Source: Amycolatopsis marina (lineage in GTDB: Bacteria; Actinomycetota; Actinomycetes; Mycobacteriales; Pseudonocardiaceae). From it: 64,000 bases of DNA. A program made the position numbers and the translations under genes. Positions 16,482-22,503 of the stretch are shown piece after piece (the first letter of the stretch is position 1; each line of letters begins with the position of its first letter). Location: assembly GCF_900111885.1 (NCBI RefSeq), contig NZ_FOKG01000001.1, positions 186,001 through 250,000 of the forward strand. The letters are read 5' to 3'. The notes beneath the pieces were generated by a model, which was not told where the DNA came from, ran no database searches, and worked only from the letters and a program-made list of their open reading frames with translations.

Positions 16482-17566
16482 TGAGCACCTCGACCACCTC
16501 TCGTGGTCCGGACCAGGATCTGGACACCCCCCTCGGCGGCACACCGCTCAGCCACGGCTCACTGCCCCGCAGGGCACCGCAACTGACCATAGTGGCGGCG
16601 CTGGTCGTCGGCATCGTGCTGTGGCAGACCGGGATGAGCGTCGGCCTTGCCGGCGTGCTCGCGGTCGTCGGTTACACCATCGCGATCTACGTCTGGTCGC
16701 GCATCGTCGAAGGCCGGCGCAAGGCCACCAACCGCCTGGTCACAGCGATCGTCTACGCGGCGTTCCTGCTCGCGCTGCTGCCGCTGGTCTCGGTCATCTT
16801 CACGGTGCTGTCCAAGGGCCTTCCCCGATTCGACGCCGAGTTTTTCAGCTTCTCGATGCGCGGTGTCGTCGGCGAGGGCGGTGGCGCCTACCACGCCATC
16901 ATGGGCACCTTGATCATCACCGCGCTCGCGACGGTCATCTCGGTGCCGGTCGGCATGCTGACCGCCATCTACCTGGTGGAGTACGGCAAGGGCAAGCTCG
17001 CGAAGTGGATCACGTTCTTCGTGGACGTGATGACCGGTATTCCGTCCATCGTGGCGGGTCTGTTCGCCTACGCCCTGTTCGCGCTGATCTTCGGTCCCGG
17101 TGTCCGGATGGGAATCATGGGTGCGGTCGCGCTGAGCGTGCTGATGATTCCGGTCGTGGTGCGCTCCACCGAGGAGATGCTCAAGCTCGTGCCCAACGAG
17201 CTGCGCGAAGCCTCGTACGCGCTGGCTGTGCCCAAGTGGCGCACCATCGTGAAGGTCGTGCTGCCGACAGCGCTGGCCGGGATCGCAACGGGTGTGACGC
17301 TGGCGATCGCCAGGGTCATCGGGGAGACCGCCCCACTGCTGATCACGGTCGGTATCACCTCGAGCGACAACTTCGACCCGTTCGACGGTCGTATGGCGAC
17401 ACTGTCGGTGTTCTCCTACTACGAGTACGTGAATCCCGGCGTCCCGCCCCAGCCCGCGCTCGACAGGGCATGGGCAGCCGCGCTCGTCCTTATCATTTTG
17501 GTGATGGCGCTCAACCTGATCGCACGACTGATCTCCCGACTGTTCGCACCGAAGACCCGCGGCTGA
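16481..17566 (+). CDS. pstA: phosphate ABC transporter permease PstA
   Basis: The second phosphate permease, 361 residues. Its N-terminus has an extra ~70-residue region with two helices (LTIVAALVVGIVLWQTGM and VGLAGVLAVVGYTIAIYVW) before the six-helix core, a form common in actinobacteria. The EAA coupling loop reads LREASYALAVPKWRTIVKVVLP, and GIPSIVAGLFAYALF matches the PstA family. It starts within the pstC stop codon, so it is coupled to pstC, and pstB follows after 27 bp. Confidence 0.96.
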   Translation: MSTSTTSRGPDQDLDTPLGGTPLSHGSLPRRAPQLTIVAALVVGIVLWQTGMSVGLAGVLAVVGYTIAIYVWSRIVEGRRKATNRLVTAIVYAAFLLALLPLVSVIFTVLSKGLPRFDAEFFSFSMRGVVGEGGGAYHAIMGTLIITALATVISVPVGMLTAIYLVEYGKGKLAKWITFFVDVMTGIPSIVAGLFAYALFALIFGPGVRMGIMGAVALSVLMIPVVVRSTEEMLKLVPNELREASYALAVPKWRTIVKVVLPTALAGIATGVTLAIARVIGETAPLLITVGITSSDNFDPFDGRMATLSVFSYYEYVNPGVPPQPALDRAWAAALVLIILVMALNLIARLISRLFAPKTRG

Positions 17567-17593
17567 CGCGGATCAACACCGATAGGAAGCACA

Positions 17594-18373
17594 GTGGCCA
17601 AGCGCATCGAGGTCAAGGACCTCGACATCTACTACGACACGTTCCTCGCCGTGCAGGGCGTTTCGATGACGATCCAGCCACGGTCGGTCACCGCGTTGAT
17701 CGGCCCCTCCGGGTGCGGCAAGTCGACGTTCCTGCGATCCATCAACCGCATGCACGAACTCGTCCCGAACGCCAGGGTCGAGGGCACGATCACGATGGAC
17801 GGTGAGGATCTCTACGGCCCGGGCATCGACCCGGTCGGCGTTCGCAGGCAGATCGGCATGGTCTTCCAGCGGCCGAACCCGTTCCCCACCATGTCGATCT
17901 ACGACAACGTCGCGGCGGGCCTCCGGCTGAACAGCACCCGGATGAAGAAGTCCGATCTGGACGATCTGGTCGAGAAGTCACTGCGGTCGGCGAACCTGTG
18001 GGGAGAGGTGAAGGACCGGCTGGCCAAGCCGGGCTCCGGTCTCTCCGGCGGGCAGCAACAGCGGCTGTGCATCGCGCGGGCGATCGCGGTCTCACCCGAG
18101 GTCCTGCTGATGGACGAGCCGTGCTCGGCGCTCGACCCGATCTCGACTCAGGCCATTGAGGACCTGATGACCGAGTTGAAGTCCGAGTACACGATCGTCA
18201 TCGTGACGCACAACATGCAGCAGGCCGCCAGGGTCAGCAACACGACCGGATTCTTCAACCTGCGCGGTGTCGGTCAGCCCGGCGAACTGGTGGAGATCGA
18301 CGAAACGACGAAGATCTTCTCCACGCCGAGCAACCAGGCGACGGAGGACTACATCTCCGGCCGCTTCGGCTGA
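17594..18373 (+). CDS. pstB: phosphate ABC transporter ATPase PstB
   Basis: A 259-residue ATPase that drives phosphate import. All motifs are present: Walker [11 protein letters not shown]-loop [17 protein letters not shown], signature [16 protein letters not shown], Walker [14 protein letters not shown] and the switch His in [13 protein letters not shown]. The family-specific [22 protein letters not shown] tail is intact. GTG 17594 has AGGAAG upstream. It is the last gene of pstSCAB; two CCCGGG-centred palindromes begin 6 bp after its stop and fill the gap to the convergent mshD. Confidence 0.98.
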
Positions 18374-18378
18374 TCTCC

Positions 18379-18400
18379 CGCACTTTCCCGGGAAAGTGCG
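18379..18400. repeat. palindrome of the CACTTTCCCGGGAAAGTG family, copy 1
   Basis: A perfect 22-bp palindrome whose 18-bp core is CACTTTCCCGGGAAAGTG (18381-18398), centre 18389.5. It begins 6 bp after the pstB stop. Copy 2 is centred exactly 43 bp further on. The small inverted repeat CGGGC-6-GCCCG lies between them. Confidence 0.9.
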
Positions 18401-18420
18401 CGGGCTCGCGTGCCCGCGTC

Positions 18421-18444
18421 TCGCACTTTCCCGGGAAAGTGCGA
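18421..18444. repeat. palindrome of the CACTTTCCCGGGAAAGTG family, copy 2
   Basis: A perfect 24-bp palindrome with the same 18-bp core (18424-18441), centre 18432.5. It ends one base before the stop codon of the convergent mshD gene. Together with copy 1 it makes up most of the 72-bp pstB-mshD gap, so it may act as a bidirectional terminator or a protein-binding site. Confidence 0.9.
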
Positions 18445-18445
18445 C

Positions 18446-19360
18446 CTACCGGGCGTACTGGACGTCGACCTCGTAGCGCGTGAAACCGAGTCCGGTGTAG
18501 ACGGACACGGCAGGGGCGTTGTCGCCCTCCACATACAGAATGATCTGCTCGAGTCCGCGGTCGGCGAGATGGCGCAGGCCGGCCAGCGTCAGCGCCTTGC
18601 CCAGTCCACCGCCCTGCGCGGCCGGGTCGACACCGACCACGTAGACCTCGCCGACCGGCTTTCCACCGAACCGTTCCGGGTTCGGCTCGTGCACCTTCGT
18701 CCAGTGAAAGCCGACGACGCCACCTGTCGCGTTCTCCGCGAGGAAGAACCCCGCCGGGTCGAACCAGCCCTCCCGCTCGGTCGCCCGCAGTTCGTCCGCG
18801 GTGAGACTGCCCTGTTCCGGATGCCAGTCGAAAGCACGGGCATTGACCGCGATCACGGCGTCCTCGTCCTGCCCCGGCCGGAACGTCCGGATGGAGACGC
18901 CCTCGCGAAGCGCAGGTTCGGGCCATTGCGCGTCCGCCACCTCGGCATGCATGACCAGCAGCTCACGAGCCCTGGTGAAGCCGGCCCGCTCGGCAAGCCG
19001 GGCGGCACCGGGGTGGTCGCCGTGCGACCAGACGCGTAACCGGTCCCGTTCCGCGCCTGCCTTGTCGACCAGCGCGTCGACCATGGCCGTCGCATAGCCG
19101 TTGCGACGGCGGTCCGGCCGCACGATCAGCTCCGCGACCTGCCTGCCGAAGGAGTCGCCGCCGGTGTCCAGGTGGGCGTATCCGACCAGTTCGCCTGCGA
19201 CGTCCGCGAGCAGGTGCGCCCCACCGGTCAGTTCCGGGGGCAACGCCGTGCCCTCCGGGAGCTCCGGCCTCCCGTCGACGTCCCGTGCCGCGAGCAGCAA
19301 CGCACGGATCCGCTCGACCGTCGCAGGGTCCGGGTCCTCGATCCACACCGCATTCAGCAT
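18446..19360 (-). CDS. mshD: mycothiol synthase MshD
   Basis: A 304-residue acetyltransferase that acetylates the cysteinyl amine of Cys-GlcN-Ins, the last step in mycothiol synthesis. Two tandem GNAT domains are visible: AELIVRPDRRRNGYATAMV (residues ~75-95) in the N-terminal one and VYVVGVDPAAQGGGLGKALT (~240-260) for acetyl-CoA binding in the active C-terminal one. The C-terminal LYVEGDNAPAVSVYTGLGF is a strong family match. ATG 19360 follows glnR by 40 bp on the same strand, and the glnR-mshD pairing is conserved in mycobacteria. Confidence 0.97.
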   Translation of the reverse strand: MLNAVWIEDPDPATVERIRALLLAARDVDGRPELPEGTALPPELTGGAHLLADVAGELVGYAHLDTGGDSFGRQVAELIVRPDRRRNGYATAMVDALVDKAGAERDRLRVWSHGDHPGAARLAERAGFTRARELLVMHAEVADAQWPEPALREGVSIRTFRPGQDEDAVIAVNARAFDWHPEQGSLTADELRATEREGWFDPAGFFLAENATGGVVGFHWTKVHEPNPERFGGKPVGEVYVVGVDPAAQGGGLGKALTLAGLRHLADRGLEQIILYVEGDNAPAVSVYTGLGFTRYEVDVQYAR

Positions 19361-19400
19361 GCGACCAACTTACCCAGCCGGGGTTGTGTCGCGACGGGGA

Positions 19401-20153
19401 TCAGGAGTTGGAGAACTGTCCCCGCTGGACCTGCTGGGGCATCATCGAAGCGGTCGGCGGCTTCGCGGCGGCCCCCTTCGCGGGGCGTTCGAACTTGTAG
19501 CCCACGTTGCGCACGGTGCCGATCATCTGCTCGTGCTCGGGGCCCAGCTTCGCCCGCAGGCGCCGCACATGGACGTCGACCGTGCGGGTGCCGCCGAAGA
19601 AGTCGTAGCCCCACACCTCCTGCAGCAGCTGCGCCCTGGTGAACACCCGCCCCGCGTGCTGGGCGAGGTACTTGAGCAGTTCGAATTCCTTGTAGGTCAG
19701 TTCGAGTGTGCGCTTGCGCAGTCGTGCGGTGTACGTGGCCTCGTCGATCACCAGGTCCCCCACGCGCAACTCGGCGTCGGCCTGGGAGACGGCGCCGTCG
19801 CGCGTGGTGGCGAGCCGCAGCCGGGCGTCGACCTCGGCCGGCCCCGCGGTGGGCAGAATGATGTCGTCGGTCCGCCATTCGGCGCTGACCGCGACCAAAC
19901 CACCCTCGCCGACGACCGCGATGACAGGCGTGGAAGCCTCGTCGTCACCAGCGCCCTTGAGCAGTCGGCAGAGGCTCTTCGCGGAGGCGAGATCGGTGCG
20001 CGCGTCCAGCAGGATCAGGTCACGGCCCCCCGCGTCGAGCAGTGCGGTGACCTCCGGAGCGCGCACGCGTACGGTGTGAGGCAGCAGATCGAGGGCAGGT
20101 AGGACAGTTGTCGCATCCTGTTCCGCCGTAAGCACCAGCAAGTCCAGGCTCAT
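19401..20153 (-). CDS. glnR: GlnR-type orphan response regulator (nitrogen control)
   Basis: An OmpR-fold transcription factor of about 250 residues, the likely global nitrogen regulator GlnR of actinobacteria. Residues 1-115 form an atypical receiver ([20 protein letters not shown], with Asp in LILLDART) for which no partner kinase is expected. Residues ~130-225 form the winged helix, with [47 protein letters not shown] and [14 protein letters not shown] 20153 is chosen because AAGG lies about 8 nt upstream; a GTG two codons earlier is possible. It is upstream of mshD and divergent from lmeA. Confidence 0.93.
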
Positions 20154-20318
20154 CGCCACACCGCCTTGTTTTGGATCGCCTCGGATTCGGCTTCGGGCCG
20201 GTGCTGAGTGAGAATAGCCGATGACAAGACCGGAGTCCCCAGCTTGACGACCGGATCACACCTGGTCGGGCAGGTTTGACAGGCGCGAAGACATGCAGAT
20301 GACAGATCGGAACCGATT

Positions 20319-21191
20319 GTGAGCAGCCCCGTCACACAGCAGAACCGGCGCGGCCCCGCCCGTCCCGTCAAGCGCAAGGGACGGCGCACCAAGAAGATCG
20401 TCATCGTCCTGCTCGTGCTGGCCGGACTGCTGGTCGGGGCCGATTTCGCGCTCGCGGCCGTGGCTGAGCACACGGTCTCGCAGAAGGCGCGCGAGCAACT
20501 CGGGCTGACCGAGGATCCTTCGGTCACCGTGCACGGCTTCCCGTTCACCACGCAGGCGCTGTCCGGTGACTACCGCCACATCTCGGTCTCGGCGACCGGC
20601 GTCCCGGTGCAGGACACCCTGCGCGACGTCGGAGTCGCCGCGGAGTTGCGAGACGTGGACGCCCCGCTCTCCGACCTGATGGCCGGGAACGTGGACAACA
20701 TCAAGATCAACGAGGTCGAGGGGCAGGTCCGGATCAAGGACAGCGACATCGCCAGGGTCGATCCGCTCGACAAGATCGAGAACCTGCGCATCGCACCGTC
20801 CACGGAGGACTACGTCCGGCACGGCGACGAGGGCGCCGTGGAGGAGGACGCCGCCAAGGAGGAGAAGGACGGCTCGTCGGCCGGTATCCGGTTGTCCGGC
20901 GAGGTGCAGATCGCCGGGGAACGGGTCGAGATCATCGCGTTCGCGATCATCGACCTCGACGGCAACACCGTGCGGATCAGCCCGGAGCGACTCGAGTTCG
21001 GGAATGGTCAGGACAGGACGGTTGTTCCCCCAGAGGTACAACAGACGCTGCTGCCGAGCTTCGAGGCGGACATCAGCACCGGTTCGTTGCCGTTCACGGT
21101 GACTCCCACCGACATCGAGGTGGAATCCGGTGCGATCGTGGTCAAGGGCACGGCCGAGAACGTGCGGTTCAGCGGGATGTCGGGCAACTGA
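20319..21191 (+). CDS. lmeA: LmeA-family DUF2993 envelope protein
   Basis: A 290-residue exported protein of the DUF2993 family. Its mycobacterial member LmeA binds phosphoinositides and helps lipomannan mannan elongation in the periplasm. A basic N-terminus (KRKGRRTKK) is followed by one hydrophobic helix (IVIVLLVLAGLLVGADFALA) that is a signal or anchor. The rest is a beta-rich, tubular lipid-binding-like fold with VTVHGFPFTTQALSGDYRHIS and NIKINEVEGQVRI as family landmarks. A charged insertion, EEDAAKEEKDGSS, sits near residue 190. GTG 20319 has no clear ribosome site. The position beside glnR matches mycobacterial order. Confidence 0.88.
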   Translation: MSSPVTQQNRRGPARPVKRKGRRTKKIVIVLLVLAGLLVGADFALAAVAEHTVSQKAREQLGLTEDPSVTVHGFPFTTQALSGDYRHISVSATGVPVQDTLRDVGVAAELRDVDAPLSDLMAGNVDNIKINEVEGQVRIKDSDIARVDPLDKIENLRIAPSTEDYVRHGDEGAVEEDAAKEEKDGSSAGIRLSGEVQIAGERVEIIAFAIIDLDGNTVRISPERLEFGNGQDRTVVPPEVQQTLLPSFEADISTGSLPFTVTPTDIEVESGAIVVKGTAENVRFSGMSGN

Positions 21192-21226
21192 CTGGGGCCG
21201 GACACGGGGAGAGGATCGAACGCCGA

Positions 21227-21667
21227 ATGACAGGGGTGTGGGTGCTGCTGGGCACGCTGGCCGCCGCGCTGGCCGCCGGCGCCATGCTCGCGGCGCGCAA
21301 CGGCCGTATCCGGACGGGGAAGCGGCCGGAGCGCGCACTGCCCGCGGCGGTCGCCGAGGCGATCGATCCCGCCGCTGGAGTCACCCTGGTGCAGATCTCC
21401 ACCACGTTCTGCGCGCCCTGCAGGCACACTCGCGCGGTGCTTTCCATCCTCGCCGAACGTACTGCCGGACTGCACCACGTGGACCTCGACGTGACCCAGC
21501 GGCCCGAGGTGGCCGAGGCGCTCGGGGTGCTGCGCACGCCCACCACGCTGGCATTCGACCCAGGCGGCAGCGAACTGCTGCGGATCGGCGGTGTGCCGAA
21601 GGCCGCGGCGCTGCTGGACGCACTGCGTCCGCATTTGCCCACCTCCCGCACTTTCCCGGGAAAGTGA
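21227..21667 (+). CDS. membrane-anchored thioredoxin-like protein
   Basis: A 146-residue thioredoxin-fold protein. One N-terminal membrane helix (VWVLLGTLAAALAAGAMLAA) is followed by the thioredoxin domain with active site FCAPC (Cys62, Cys65) and the cis-proline region LGVLRTPTTLAF. It likely reduces or transfers electrons to sulfur enzymes of the adjacent operon, as with mycobacterial ThiX. Oddly, its last codons (SRTFPGK and stop) lie inside a CACTTTCCCGGGAAAGTG palindrome, so the C-terminus may have been set by insertion of that element. It starts 35 bp after lmeA. Confidence 0.88.
   Translation: MTGVWVLLGTLAAALAAGAMLAARNGRIRTGKRPERALPAAVAEAIDPAAGVTLVQISTTFCAPCRHTRAVLSILAERTAGLHHVDLDVTQRPEVAEALGVLRTPTTLAFDPGGSELLRIGGVPKAAALLDALRPHLPTSRTFPGK
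21649..21666. repeat. palindrome of the CACTTTCCCGGGAAAGTG family, copy 3
   Basis: A perfect 18-bp palindrome, centre 21657.5, overlapping the last codons of the thioredoxin gene so that the TGA stop shares its final bases. Copy 4 is centred 43 bp downstream, the same spacing as between copies 1 and 2. Confidence 0.9.
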
Positions 21668-21691
21668 CGTACACCGCGCGTGCACGCACAT

Positions 21692-21709
21692 CACTTTCCC
21701 GGGAAAGTG
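21692..21709. repeat. palindrome of the CACTTTCCCGGGAAAGTG family, copy 4
   Basis: A perfect 18-bp core, centre 21700.5, in the non-coding gap after the thioredoxin gene. Copy 5 is centred 53 bp further. The flanks differ from those of copies 1, 2 and 5, so only the core is conserved. Confidence 0.9.
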
Positions 21710-21740
21710 CGCGGCTGGCGCAGGTCGTGGACCAGGGCAC

Positions 21741-21766
21741 CTCGCACTTTCCCGGGAAAGTGCGAG
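21741..21766. repeat. palindrome of the CACTTTCCCGGGAAAGTG family, copy 5
   Basis: The longest copy, a perfect 26-bp palindrome with core 21745-21762 and centre 21753.5. It ends about 90 bp before the -10 box of the cysteine leader peptide, so this group of three could act as terminator for the thioredoxin gene, as regulator of the sulfur operon, or both. Confidence 0.9.
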
Positions 21767-21829
21767 GTCAGCGCCCTGGGCGCGGCCCGGGGTCCCGGTA
21801 TCTGGGACTCGTCTCACAAGATGAGCACG

Positions 21830-21848
21830 CTTCCCACTCTGAGGGAAG
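21830..21848. promoter_or_regulatory. inverted repeat at -35 of the sulfur operon promoter
   Basis: CTTCCC-N7-GGGAAG overlaps the expected -35 area of the promoter whose -10 is at 21855. It may be an operator for a sulfur-responsive regulator; which protein binds is unknown. Confidence 0.35.
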
Positions 21849-21854
21849 TCTGGG

Positions 21855-21860
21855 TACCCT
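21855..21860 (+). promoter_or_regulatory. -10 box of leaderless sulfur-operon promoter
   Basis: TACCCT ends 7 nt before the GTG of the leader peptide at 21868, the typical geometry of a leaderless transcript, so the leader is probably translated from the first base of the mRNA. Confidence 0.65.
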
Positions 21861-21867
21861 GACCCTC

Positions 21868-21981
21868 GTGGACCGGCTGCCTATTCACTTGCTGACGCAG
21901 CGCCGCGCAGTGGACCTGTGCCGCGTGCGCAGCAGCCTGTGTCCACGCTCGCCGCGTTCGGGCGCGCGGTCCCTGCGCTGA
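21868..21981 (+). CDS. cysteine-containing leader peptide (attenuation uORF)
   Basis: A 37-codon ORF beginning GTG whose core, LLTQRRAVDLCRVRSSLC, matches the actinobacterial leader peptides (RRHVDLCR-type) found in front of sulfur-assimilation genes. Cysteine-containing leaderless uORFs at the corresponding place in mycobacteria attenuate the downstream operon when cysteine is sufficient. Two Cys codons are close together near the middle, and a TACCCT -10 box 7 nt upstream implies leaderless translation. It precedes DUF4395, sulfurtransferase and DUF1416 genes, so ribosome stalling at scarce Cys-tRNA would couple cysteine supply to them. Too short to be found by standard callers. Confidence 0.75.
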   Translation: MDRLPIHLLTQRRAVDLCRVRSSLCPRSPRSGARSLR

Positions 21982-22024
21982 GCAGGGTCTACCGCAGCCG
22001 ACCTTCGCACCACCTGTCGAGCCG

Positions 22025-22063
22025 GGCGCATGTGCGCCACCATCTGTCCAGCCCAGGAGCGCC
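22025..22063 (+). promoter_or_regulatory. candidate attenuator / RBS-sequestering hairpins
   Basis: GGCGC at 22025-22029 can pair either with GCGCC at 22034-22038 or with GCGCC at 22059-22063, which overlaps the AGGAG ribosome site of the DUF4395 gene. Mutually exclusive pairing downstream of a Cys leader peptide would suit translational attenuation. This rests on inspection only. Confidence 0.35.
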
Positions 22064-22065
22064 AG

Positions 22066-22503
22066 ATGTTCGCAGGACCCGCCGTTGATCCCCGCGGGCC
22101 GCGTTTCGCGGCCGCCGTCACCACTGTCGTGCTCGCCGTCGTACTGGTGACCGGCTGGTGGCCGCTACTCGCCGCGCAGACGGTGGTCTTCGCGATCGGG
22201 GCGTTCGTCGGACTGAAGCCCGCTCCGTACTCGGTGCTGTACCGGAGTCTGGTCGCCCCACGCCTCGGGCCGACCAGCGAACGGGAGGACGCGGCTCCAC
22301 TGCGCTTCGCCCAGACTGTGGGTTTCGTGTTCGCGCTCGTCGGGACGATCGGCTACGCCACTGATCTCATCACCCTCGGTGCCGTGGCCACGGCGTTCGC
22401 GCTGTTCGCCGCTTTCCTCAACGCGGCGTTCAACTTCTGCCTCGGCTGCGAGGTCTACCTGCTCGTCCGCCGGTTCACGCCCCGAACCGGCCAACCGTCC
22501 TAA
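22066..22503 (+). CDS. DUF4395 membrane protein
   Basis: A 145-residue integral membrane protein of the DUF4395 family with four hydrophobic helices: AAAVTTVVLAVVLVTGWWPL, LAAQTVVFAIGAFVGL, FAQTVGFVFALVGTIGYA and LGAVATAFALFAAFLNAAF. The C-terminal FCLGCEVYLLVRR keeps a conserved CxxC pair near the membrane, suggesting thiol or persulfide chemistry with the neighbouring thioredoxin and sulfurtransferase; the role is not proven. ATG 22066 has AGGAG 6 nt upstream. It is the first full gene after the leader peptide. Confidence 0.88.
   Translation: MFAGPAVDPRGPRFAAAVTTVVLAVVLVTGWWPLLAAQTVVFAIGAFVGLKPAPYSVLYRSLVAPRLGPTSEREDAAPLRFAQTVGFVFALVGTIGYATDLITLGAVATAFALFAAFLNAAFNFCLGCEVYLLVRRFTPRTGQPS

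Follow-up and report, generated by a model that had tools for sequence, protein, structure and literature searches.

Why should a 64,000-nucleotide stretch of the Amycolatopsis marina genome (the window, C11:186001-250000 of the 7.02-Mb, 58-contig host genome, hereafter G000) carry five perfect copies of one 18-bp palindrome, CACTTTCCCGGGAAAGTG, where 100 shuffles lead one to expect 0.03? The sequence-only reading that drew attention to these copies placed them correctly, as it did their start-to-start distances of 43, 43 and 53 bp, and a scan of the window allowing up to three mismatches adds no further site. We find that the palindrome belongs to a family of extragenic palindromic elements confined to Amycolatopsis among the genomes surveyed—analogous to repetitive extragenic palindromic (REP) sequences and bacterial interspersed mosaic elements (BIMEs), without a REP transposase—whose units stand singly or in groups of up to four, spaced at near-whole turns of the helix (3, 4, 5 or 6), mostly in gene 3' flanks and above all in the gaps between convergent genes. 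That this genus-specific family acts as a set of phased DNA sites for a putative dimeric protein is a proposal to which we give about an even chance.

Abundance, unit and helical spacing

A search of the whole host genome returned 289 copies of the 18-mer, rather than a handful at random spacing, and none of its reversed, uncomplemented control. Detailed analyses used 1,876,111 bases of this genome (1.88 Mb, 27%), in which C11 was included for the window and at least six of 20 extra stretches (four from C9, two from C10) for their listed sites; densities are not extrapolated beyond this set. It holds 134 sites, 102 of them perfect and 32 with one to three mismatches, arranged in 67 clusters (19 single, 30 double, 17 triple and one quadruple). 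In a census of 12-bp palindromes over the same bases one word was strongly over-represented, with 105 copies against 14 for the runner-up. The conserved unit is perfectly symmetric and reaches approximately CGCACTTTCCCGGGAAAGTGCG, about 22 bp; in 268 flanks, C occupies the first outer position at a frequency of 89%, and G the next one at 76%. The centre is CCGG at 102 of the 108 intact-arm sites found among those within three mismatches, and at 289 of 309 intact-arm sites across the genome.

Spacings of up to 70 bp in the detailed set, 66 in all, fall into few lengths—27 bp (1), 33 bp (8), 42–44 bp (33), 52–53 bp (5), and 62–64 bp (19)—and longer neighbour spacings are 89 and 163 bp. All but one of the 66 deviate by no more than 2 bp from a multiple of 10.5, compared with an expectation of 42–43%; so do 29 of 35 spacings in the related genome G322, taken from stretches selected for their sites or for synteny, and 70 of 75 pairs tallied by hand (from a total of 242) in genomes in which the palindrome has an ACGT centre. 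Grouping the 67 host spacers of up to 100 bp at 68% identity gave 23 groups, including two large families of 31 members (42–44 bp) and 10 members (62–64 bp), and an identical 24-bp spacer recurs at three distant loci. When every one of the 22 groups of up to 70 bp is represented by a single spacer, the spacings still yield R = 0.876 at a period of 9.95, which none of 20,000 uniform draws equalled, a uniform null making this significance look better than warranted. Because spacers taken one per group remain strongly periodic, the earlier suggestion of near-whole-turn spacing holds well beyond the window, with the proviso that the four main length classes may in part be inherited lengths. Its further observation, that the core is kept while the flanks differ, stands as far as cores are better kept than spacers and fails as far as the flanks are themselves partly related, 41 of 67 spacers belonging to the two large families.

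Gene ends and related genomes

To place sites relative to genes, we relied on an in-house codon-usage gene caller applied to the 1.88 Mb (84% coding) and not on annotation. By these calls, 58 sites lie in convergent gaps, 55 in co-directional gaps, 15 in divergent gaps, 5 within genes and 1 at an edge. The expectation for random positions is 2.3% convergent, 8.7% co-directional, 4.3% divergent and 84% intragenic. Within gaps of 20–400 bp, density falls from 3.3 per kb in convergent gaps (55 sites in 16.7 kb) to 0.64 per kb in co-directional gaps (50 in 77.9 kb) and 0.34 per kb in divergent gaps (14 in 41.5 kb), the last being roughly tenfold below the first. The nearest copy is centred at most 40 nt from a stop codon in 36 of the 55 clusters of co-directional or convergent gaps. 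The element is not required for convergence, being present in only 25 of 164 convergent gaps. Nor is there one conserved slot beside mshD, the gene next to one of the window's two clusters: intact arms were found at just 4 of 30 mshD loci (in G000 and G322, and at the mshD 5' end in G308 and G342), and we rejected that idea. At 19 loci (L159–L187) with mshD on the plus strand, the pstB motif was not found after mshD in 18; several of these loci instead show pho-box-like repeats there. At the other 11 mshD is not on the plus strand, and the stretch compared is not downstream of it.

Paired copies also occur in the named relatives A. palatopharyngis DSM 44832 and A. bullii, and two genomes of the host's genus, G322 and G278, are tentatively these species, respectively. 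Over 103 kb, C11 can be aligned at 87% identity to a 113-kb contig of G322, which permits a direct comparison of orthologous sites. The 15 cores compared, from nine loci, show 15 differences in 270 positions (5.6%); five spacers of nearly the same length show 30 in 135 (22%). Spacing is identical in four of six orthologous intervals, off by 2 bp in one and by 12 bp, about one turn, in another; among ordinary element-free gaps, 10 of 32 are equal in length and 12 of 32 agree within 2 bp. Compensated pair changes are rare, at 2 of 51 changed pairs in G000 and 3 of 34 in G322. Copies are also gained and lost: at C11:281837 one of two copies has decayed past three mismatches in G000, at two loci G322 is short of one copy in a manner explicable by recombination between copies, at two others a pair in G322 is absent from G000 along with flanking sequence, and at the host site C11:304090 the G322 region differs. 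As regards a MITE, none of the few comparisons of occupied with empty loci shows a clean target duplication, and one 158-bp difference is flanked by imperfect 13-bp repeats. Separately, the listed site positions on contig C44 of G322 are mirror-symmetric, suggesting an inverted-duplication misassembly.

The arms CACTTTC-NNNN-GAAAGTG, with any centre, are present in 28 of 80 Amycolatopsis genomes including the host, numbering 309 in G000 and up to 182 in the others; G322 has 350 places within two mismatches of the CCGG form. Surveys of 297 genomes of the family and 298 of the order found the CCGG form in 3 and a CG-centred form in 2, respectively, all of the host's genus, with no match outside Amycolatopsis. 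In G301, G308, G310 and G326 the centre is mostly ACGT among the places listed, and close pairs of the ACGT form occur in 13 of the 80 genomes. The 75 tallied pairs comprise 55 at 30–35 bp (50 of these at 33) and 20 at 39–43 bp, with no spacing in 23–29, 36–38 or 44–53 bp. Judged by eye, their spacers, such as CGGCCCCCAGGTGCG or ATCCGGAG...CTCCGGAT, are mostly unlike those of the host; a CCAGG word is common to ACGT spacers and some 15- and 45-bp host spacers. A third case comes from G267, which has no intact CACTTTC arms and carries an unrelated, GTCGAC-centred palindrome, CGCAATAYGTCGACRTATTGCG, three times after mshD (L166:2475-2572); at this one locus its spacings, 33 and 42 bp, follow the same rule.

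Loci L020 (G278), L133 (G300) and L151 (G332) represent a single intergenic slot, their aligned sides having closely similar flanks. It holds CACTTTCCCGGGAAAGTG in the first two and CACTTTCACGTGAAAGTG in the third, so that the centres (CCGG versus ACGT) differ symmetrically in their two outer bases, which a hairpin would place in its loop; G000 has no site in this slot. Orthologous sites have not, as a general rule, been converted from ACGT to CCGG across the genome: by eye, a host site stands at the matching place for none of seven flank-aligned ACGT loci (L143, L151, L157, L225, L229, L231 and L234) and for one of four CCGG loci of other genomes (L021 of G278; not L017, L020 or L133). The host also has a second, rarer palindrome, GGAATTCGTCGACGAATTCC, mostly near gene 3' ends (positions include C11:267503, 304054, 647611 and 651814, C7:66865, and C18:65552 and 81511), which is once paired 44 bp apart and twice lies 35–39 bp from the main palindrome.

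Proposed phased DNA sites and their alternatives

Taken together, the fixed centre, the rarity of compensated changes, the symmetric change of centre and the near-whole-turn spacing favour recognition of double-stranded DNA by a symmetric dimer. On this proposal each palindrome would be a site for a homodimeric protein, neighbouring dimers would share one helical face and act cooperatively, and their occupancy might mark or insulate gene ends, either as a barrier to read-on transcription or as a local topological anchor. Copies also increase in number and disappear, probably via recombination between them together with a further copying process. The sequence-only reading had offered a cooperative repressor site as one option, a role that is not borne out: hundreds of sites after genes are unlike operators, and no DNA-binding gene was found.

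Several observations weigh against phased DNA sites. The spacings are not independent, and copying of the two large spacer families could account for 41 of 67 intervals; if each length class had a single ancestor, only four lengths would be left to explain. The best-fit period lies slightly below 10.5, the two modes of the ACGT tally (33 and about 41 bp) differ by 8, and off-phase spacings do occur: 27 and 89 bp in G000; 26, 34, 38, 45, 47 and 55 bp in G322; 35 and 39 bp in the ACGT tally; 36 bp in L230 of G337; and longer neighbours at 81, 87 and 89 bp in G326 and G308. The constancy of spacing relative to ordinary gaps is based on six intervals only, and core conservation is overstated, since sites decayed past three mismatches were omitted from the orthologue comparison. 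The change of centre in place was seen at one locus only, and the seven ACGT loci noted above have no host site at the matching place. Finally, no candidate binding protein was identified, and the one specific class considered, ParB/Noc, failed.

The alternative that survives best places the element in RNA, as a bidirectional terminator without a U-tract or as a 3' mRNA stabiliser of the kind proposed for REPs, and we regard it as an unlikely explanation. It fits the tendency of copies to follow stop codons closely and to fill convergent gaps, as well as the finding that some other perfect inverted repeat of 8 bp occurs in 33 of 139 convergent gaps free of the palindrome, compared with 1.2 after shuffling. 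Moreover, all three palindrome–spacer–palindrome stretches of the window fold into a single long hairpin (z −6.9 to −9.2), and adjacent window copies pair at −44.7 to −56 kcal/mol, a very stable structure that also counts against a purely DNA-level role. On the other hand, no role in RNA is known for near-whole-turn spacing, loop and stem are equally invariant, the loop was changed symmetrically at one locus, compensated changes are rare, and 15 of 134 sites lie in divergent gaps. The hairpin is present at both window clusters, and no T-tract follows it in either (positions 17600-22500 scanned), in agreement with the earlier view that these are not simple terminators. Intrinsic terminators likewise form a hairpin after the stop codon and are enriched in convergent gaps, whereas the Amycolatopsis element lacks the T-tract at the window clusters, keeps stem and loop both fixed, and forms phased arrays.

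A neutral or selfish repeat, spread by a transposase or by recombination, with spacings simply inherited from a few ancestral composite units, seems to us improbable. Support for it comes from the spacers, as two families cover 31 and 10 of the 67 intervals and one spacer is identical at three distant loci; close relatives also differ by gained and lost copies, and the ACGT loci without a host counterpart point the same way. Copying, and not selection, accounts for some of the resemblance among copies, given how many loci share the two spacer families. However, the other 21 spacer groups hit the same four length classes, except at 27 and 89 bp, and both the spacers of other species and another core come near the same lengths. 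The locus comparisons are few and include no clean insertion with target duplication. A REP transposase (Y1_Tnp, PF01797) was found neither in G000 nor in any of 15 genomes searched, other transposases not being searched for, with controls matched in 5 of 14; we therefore rejected it as the spreading agent. The sequence-only reading had suggested testing for a linked transposase or DNA-binding gene, and neither a REP transposase nor a DNA-binding gene came to light.

That the palindromes are sites of a ParB- or Noc-like CTP clamp is very improbable. The idea seemed compelling from the inner 12-mers, TTTCACGTGAAA and TTTCCCGGGAAA, which match those of parS (ACGT centre) and of the Bacillus Noc binding site, NBS (CCGG centre), and two ACGT genomes, G301 and G308, do carry additional weak ParB_N proteins. 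We rejected a ParB/Noc paralogue, however, because a single strong ParB (PF02195, PF17762) is found in each of 15 genomes, the host ParB has the canonical residues R173 and G201 (by visual alignment with Caulobacter ParB), and ordinary parS-like sites lie beside parAB and near dnaA at C11:580619 and 580726, 107 bp apart. Six extra ParB_N matches reach at most 31.8 bits, five being above the cut-off, and are limited to G297, G301, G308 and G205; none occurs in G000, G322, G326, G325, G342 or G346, all remaining HTH_ParB matches are under the cut-off, and G000 has no second ParB/Noc. Position 1 of the palindrome is C, not G or A; compared with NBS, position 6 (C) agrees and position 1 differs from A, and ATTTCCCGGGAAAT is absent from the 1.88 Mb. 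The absence of a second protein largely refutes this reading. The CCGG and ACGT versions of the palindrome thus share their inner 12 bp with NBS and parS, respectively, and its sites are scattered like theirs, whereas its outer bases are different and it stands in phased groups at gene 3' ends. A change from parS to NBS at positions 1 and 6 is treated in PMC7383237.

Returning to phased DNA sites, we advance only tentatively, as a doubtful extension, a chromosome-wide system in which a putative dimeric protein would occupy phased arrays at gene ends and the site sequence would have been swapped between lineages while whole-turn spacing was kept. Spacing, and not letters, would then be the most conserved feature, with a swap between CCGG and ACGT and perhaps also to the GTCGAC-centred palindrome of G267. 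Many functions have been suggested for REP-like repeats, and to our knowledge few tie them to DNA geometry. The differing spacers and centres of related species offer a natural experiment that separates DNA-face from RNA-hairpin effects, and the finding predicts a nucleoid or gene-end protein in an antibiotic-producing genus.

Known repeats and the window copies

The earlier suggestion of a REP-like element agrees with both the abundance and the location of the palindrome. Like the REPs of the GTAG and CGTC superfamilies, as described in PMC3733652, it is a short palindrome with more than 100 copies, located between convergent and co-directional genes, mostly downstream of coding regions and often paired; CGTC REPs, according to the same paper, also have no dedicated transposase. 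It differs in being perfectly symmetric, in its near-whole-turn spacing, and in lacking both the Y1 transposase and the end tags, with GTAG within 10 nt in 18 of 268 flanks and CGTC in 8 of 268. Because tag and transposase are absent, we do not place it in the described REP superfamilies and call it a new REP-like variant outside them. BIMEs, too, are arrays of regularly spaced palindromes at gene ends, and are bound by gyrase, IHF and Pol I; the Amycolatopsis arrays differ from them in having four quantised spacings and units that, being perfectly symmetric, have no orientation. That BIMEs and REPs serve as binding sites is stated in PMC2817692. The main text of PMC3733652 makes no mention of Actinobacteria or Amycolatopsis, and a literature search found no paper with the 18-mer or the two 14-mer cores and no relevant title on such repeats. 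Rfam gave three microRNA families and one long non-coding RNA family for positions 17500-22500 of the window, all below the gathering score. A phage or plasmid origin was rejected, as IMG/VR returned no match, and the matches from phage and plasmid BLAST searches were all short, with coverage of the query below 80%.

The features of the window are collected in Table 1; the names pstB, partly from context, and mshD are presumed assignments. With mshD on the minus strand, the first cluster sits between convergent genes. The claim that both clusters lie just past stop codons holds for copy 1 and not for copy 3, which is inside the thioredoxin frame: that frame reads through the palindrome, and its stop codon ends one base beyond it. 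The absence of copy 5 from G322 is consistent with either a deletion between repeats in G322 or a gain in the host.

Table 1. Palindrome copies, spacers and adjoining genes in the window (positions counted from its first base)
Feature	Position	Strand	Remarks
pstB-like ABC ATPase gene	17594..18373	+	PF00005; stop codon 7 bp upstream of copy 1
Palindrome copy 1, core CACTTTCCCGGGAAAGTG	18381..18398		Perfect; orthologous copy in G322 on pstB side
Spacer, 25 bp	18399..18423		Itself an inverted repeat, cgcgggc...gcccgcg
Palindrome copy 2	18424..18441		Perfect; 43 bp from copy 1; lacking in G322
mshD-like double GNAT acetyltransferase gene	18446..19360	-	PF00583; convergent with pstB
Thioredoxin-domain gene	21227..21667	+	PF00085; 3' end is palindrome sequence (...RTFPGK stop)
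Palindrome copy 3	21649..21666		Perfect; codes in frame for final codons of thioredoxin-like gene
Spacer, 25 bp	21667..21691		19/25 bases identical in G322
Palindrome copy 4	21692..21709		Perfect; 43 bp from copy 3
Spacer, 35 bp	21710..21744
Palindrome copy 5	21745..21762		Perfect; 53 bp from copy 4; lacking in G322

By eye, the palindrome-coded C-terminal frame of the thioredoxin-like gene is also present in G322. A gene beside parB in the host likewise takes its last codons from a palindrome copy, at C11:576984, with the similar tail HFPGKVRD. Elsewhere in G000, the in-house gene caller reports a 53,685-nt open frame on C13, at about 106–160 kb, perhaps a giant multimodular synthase.

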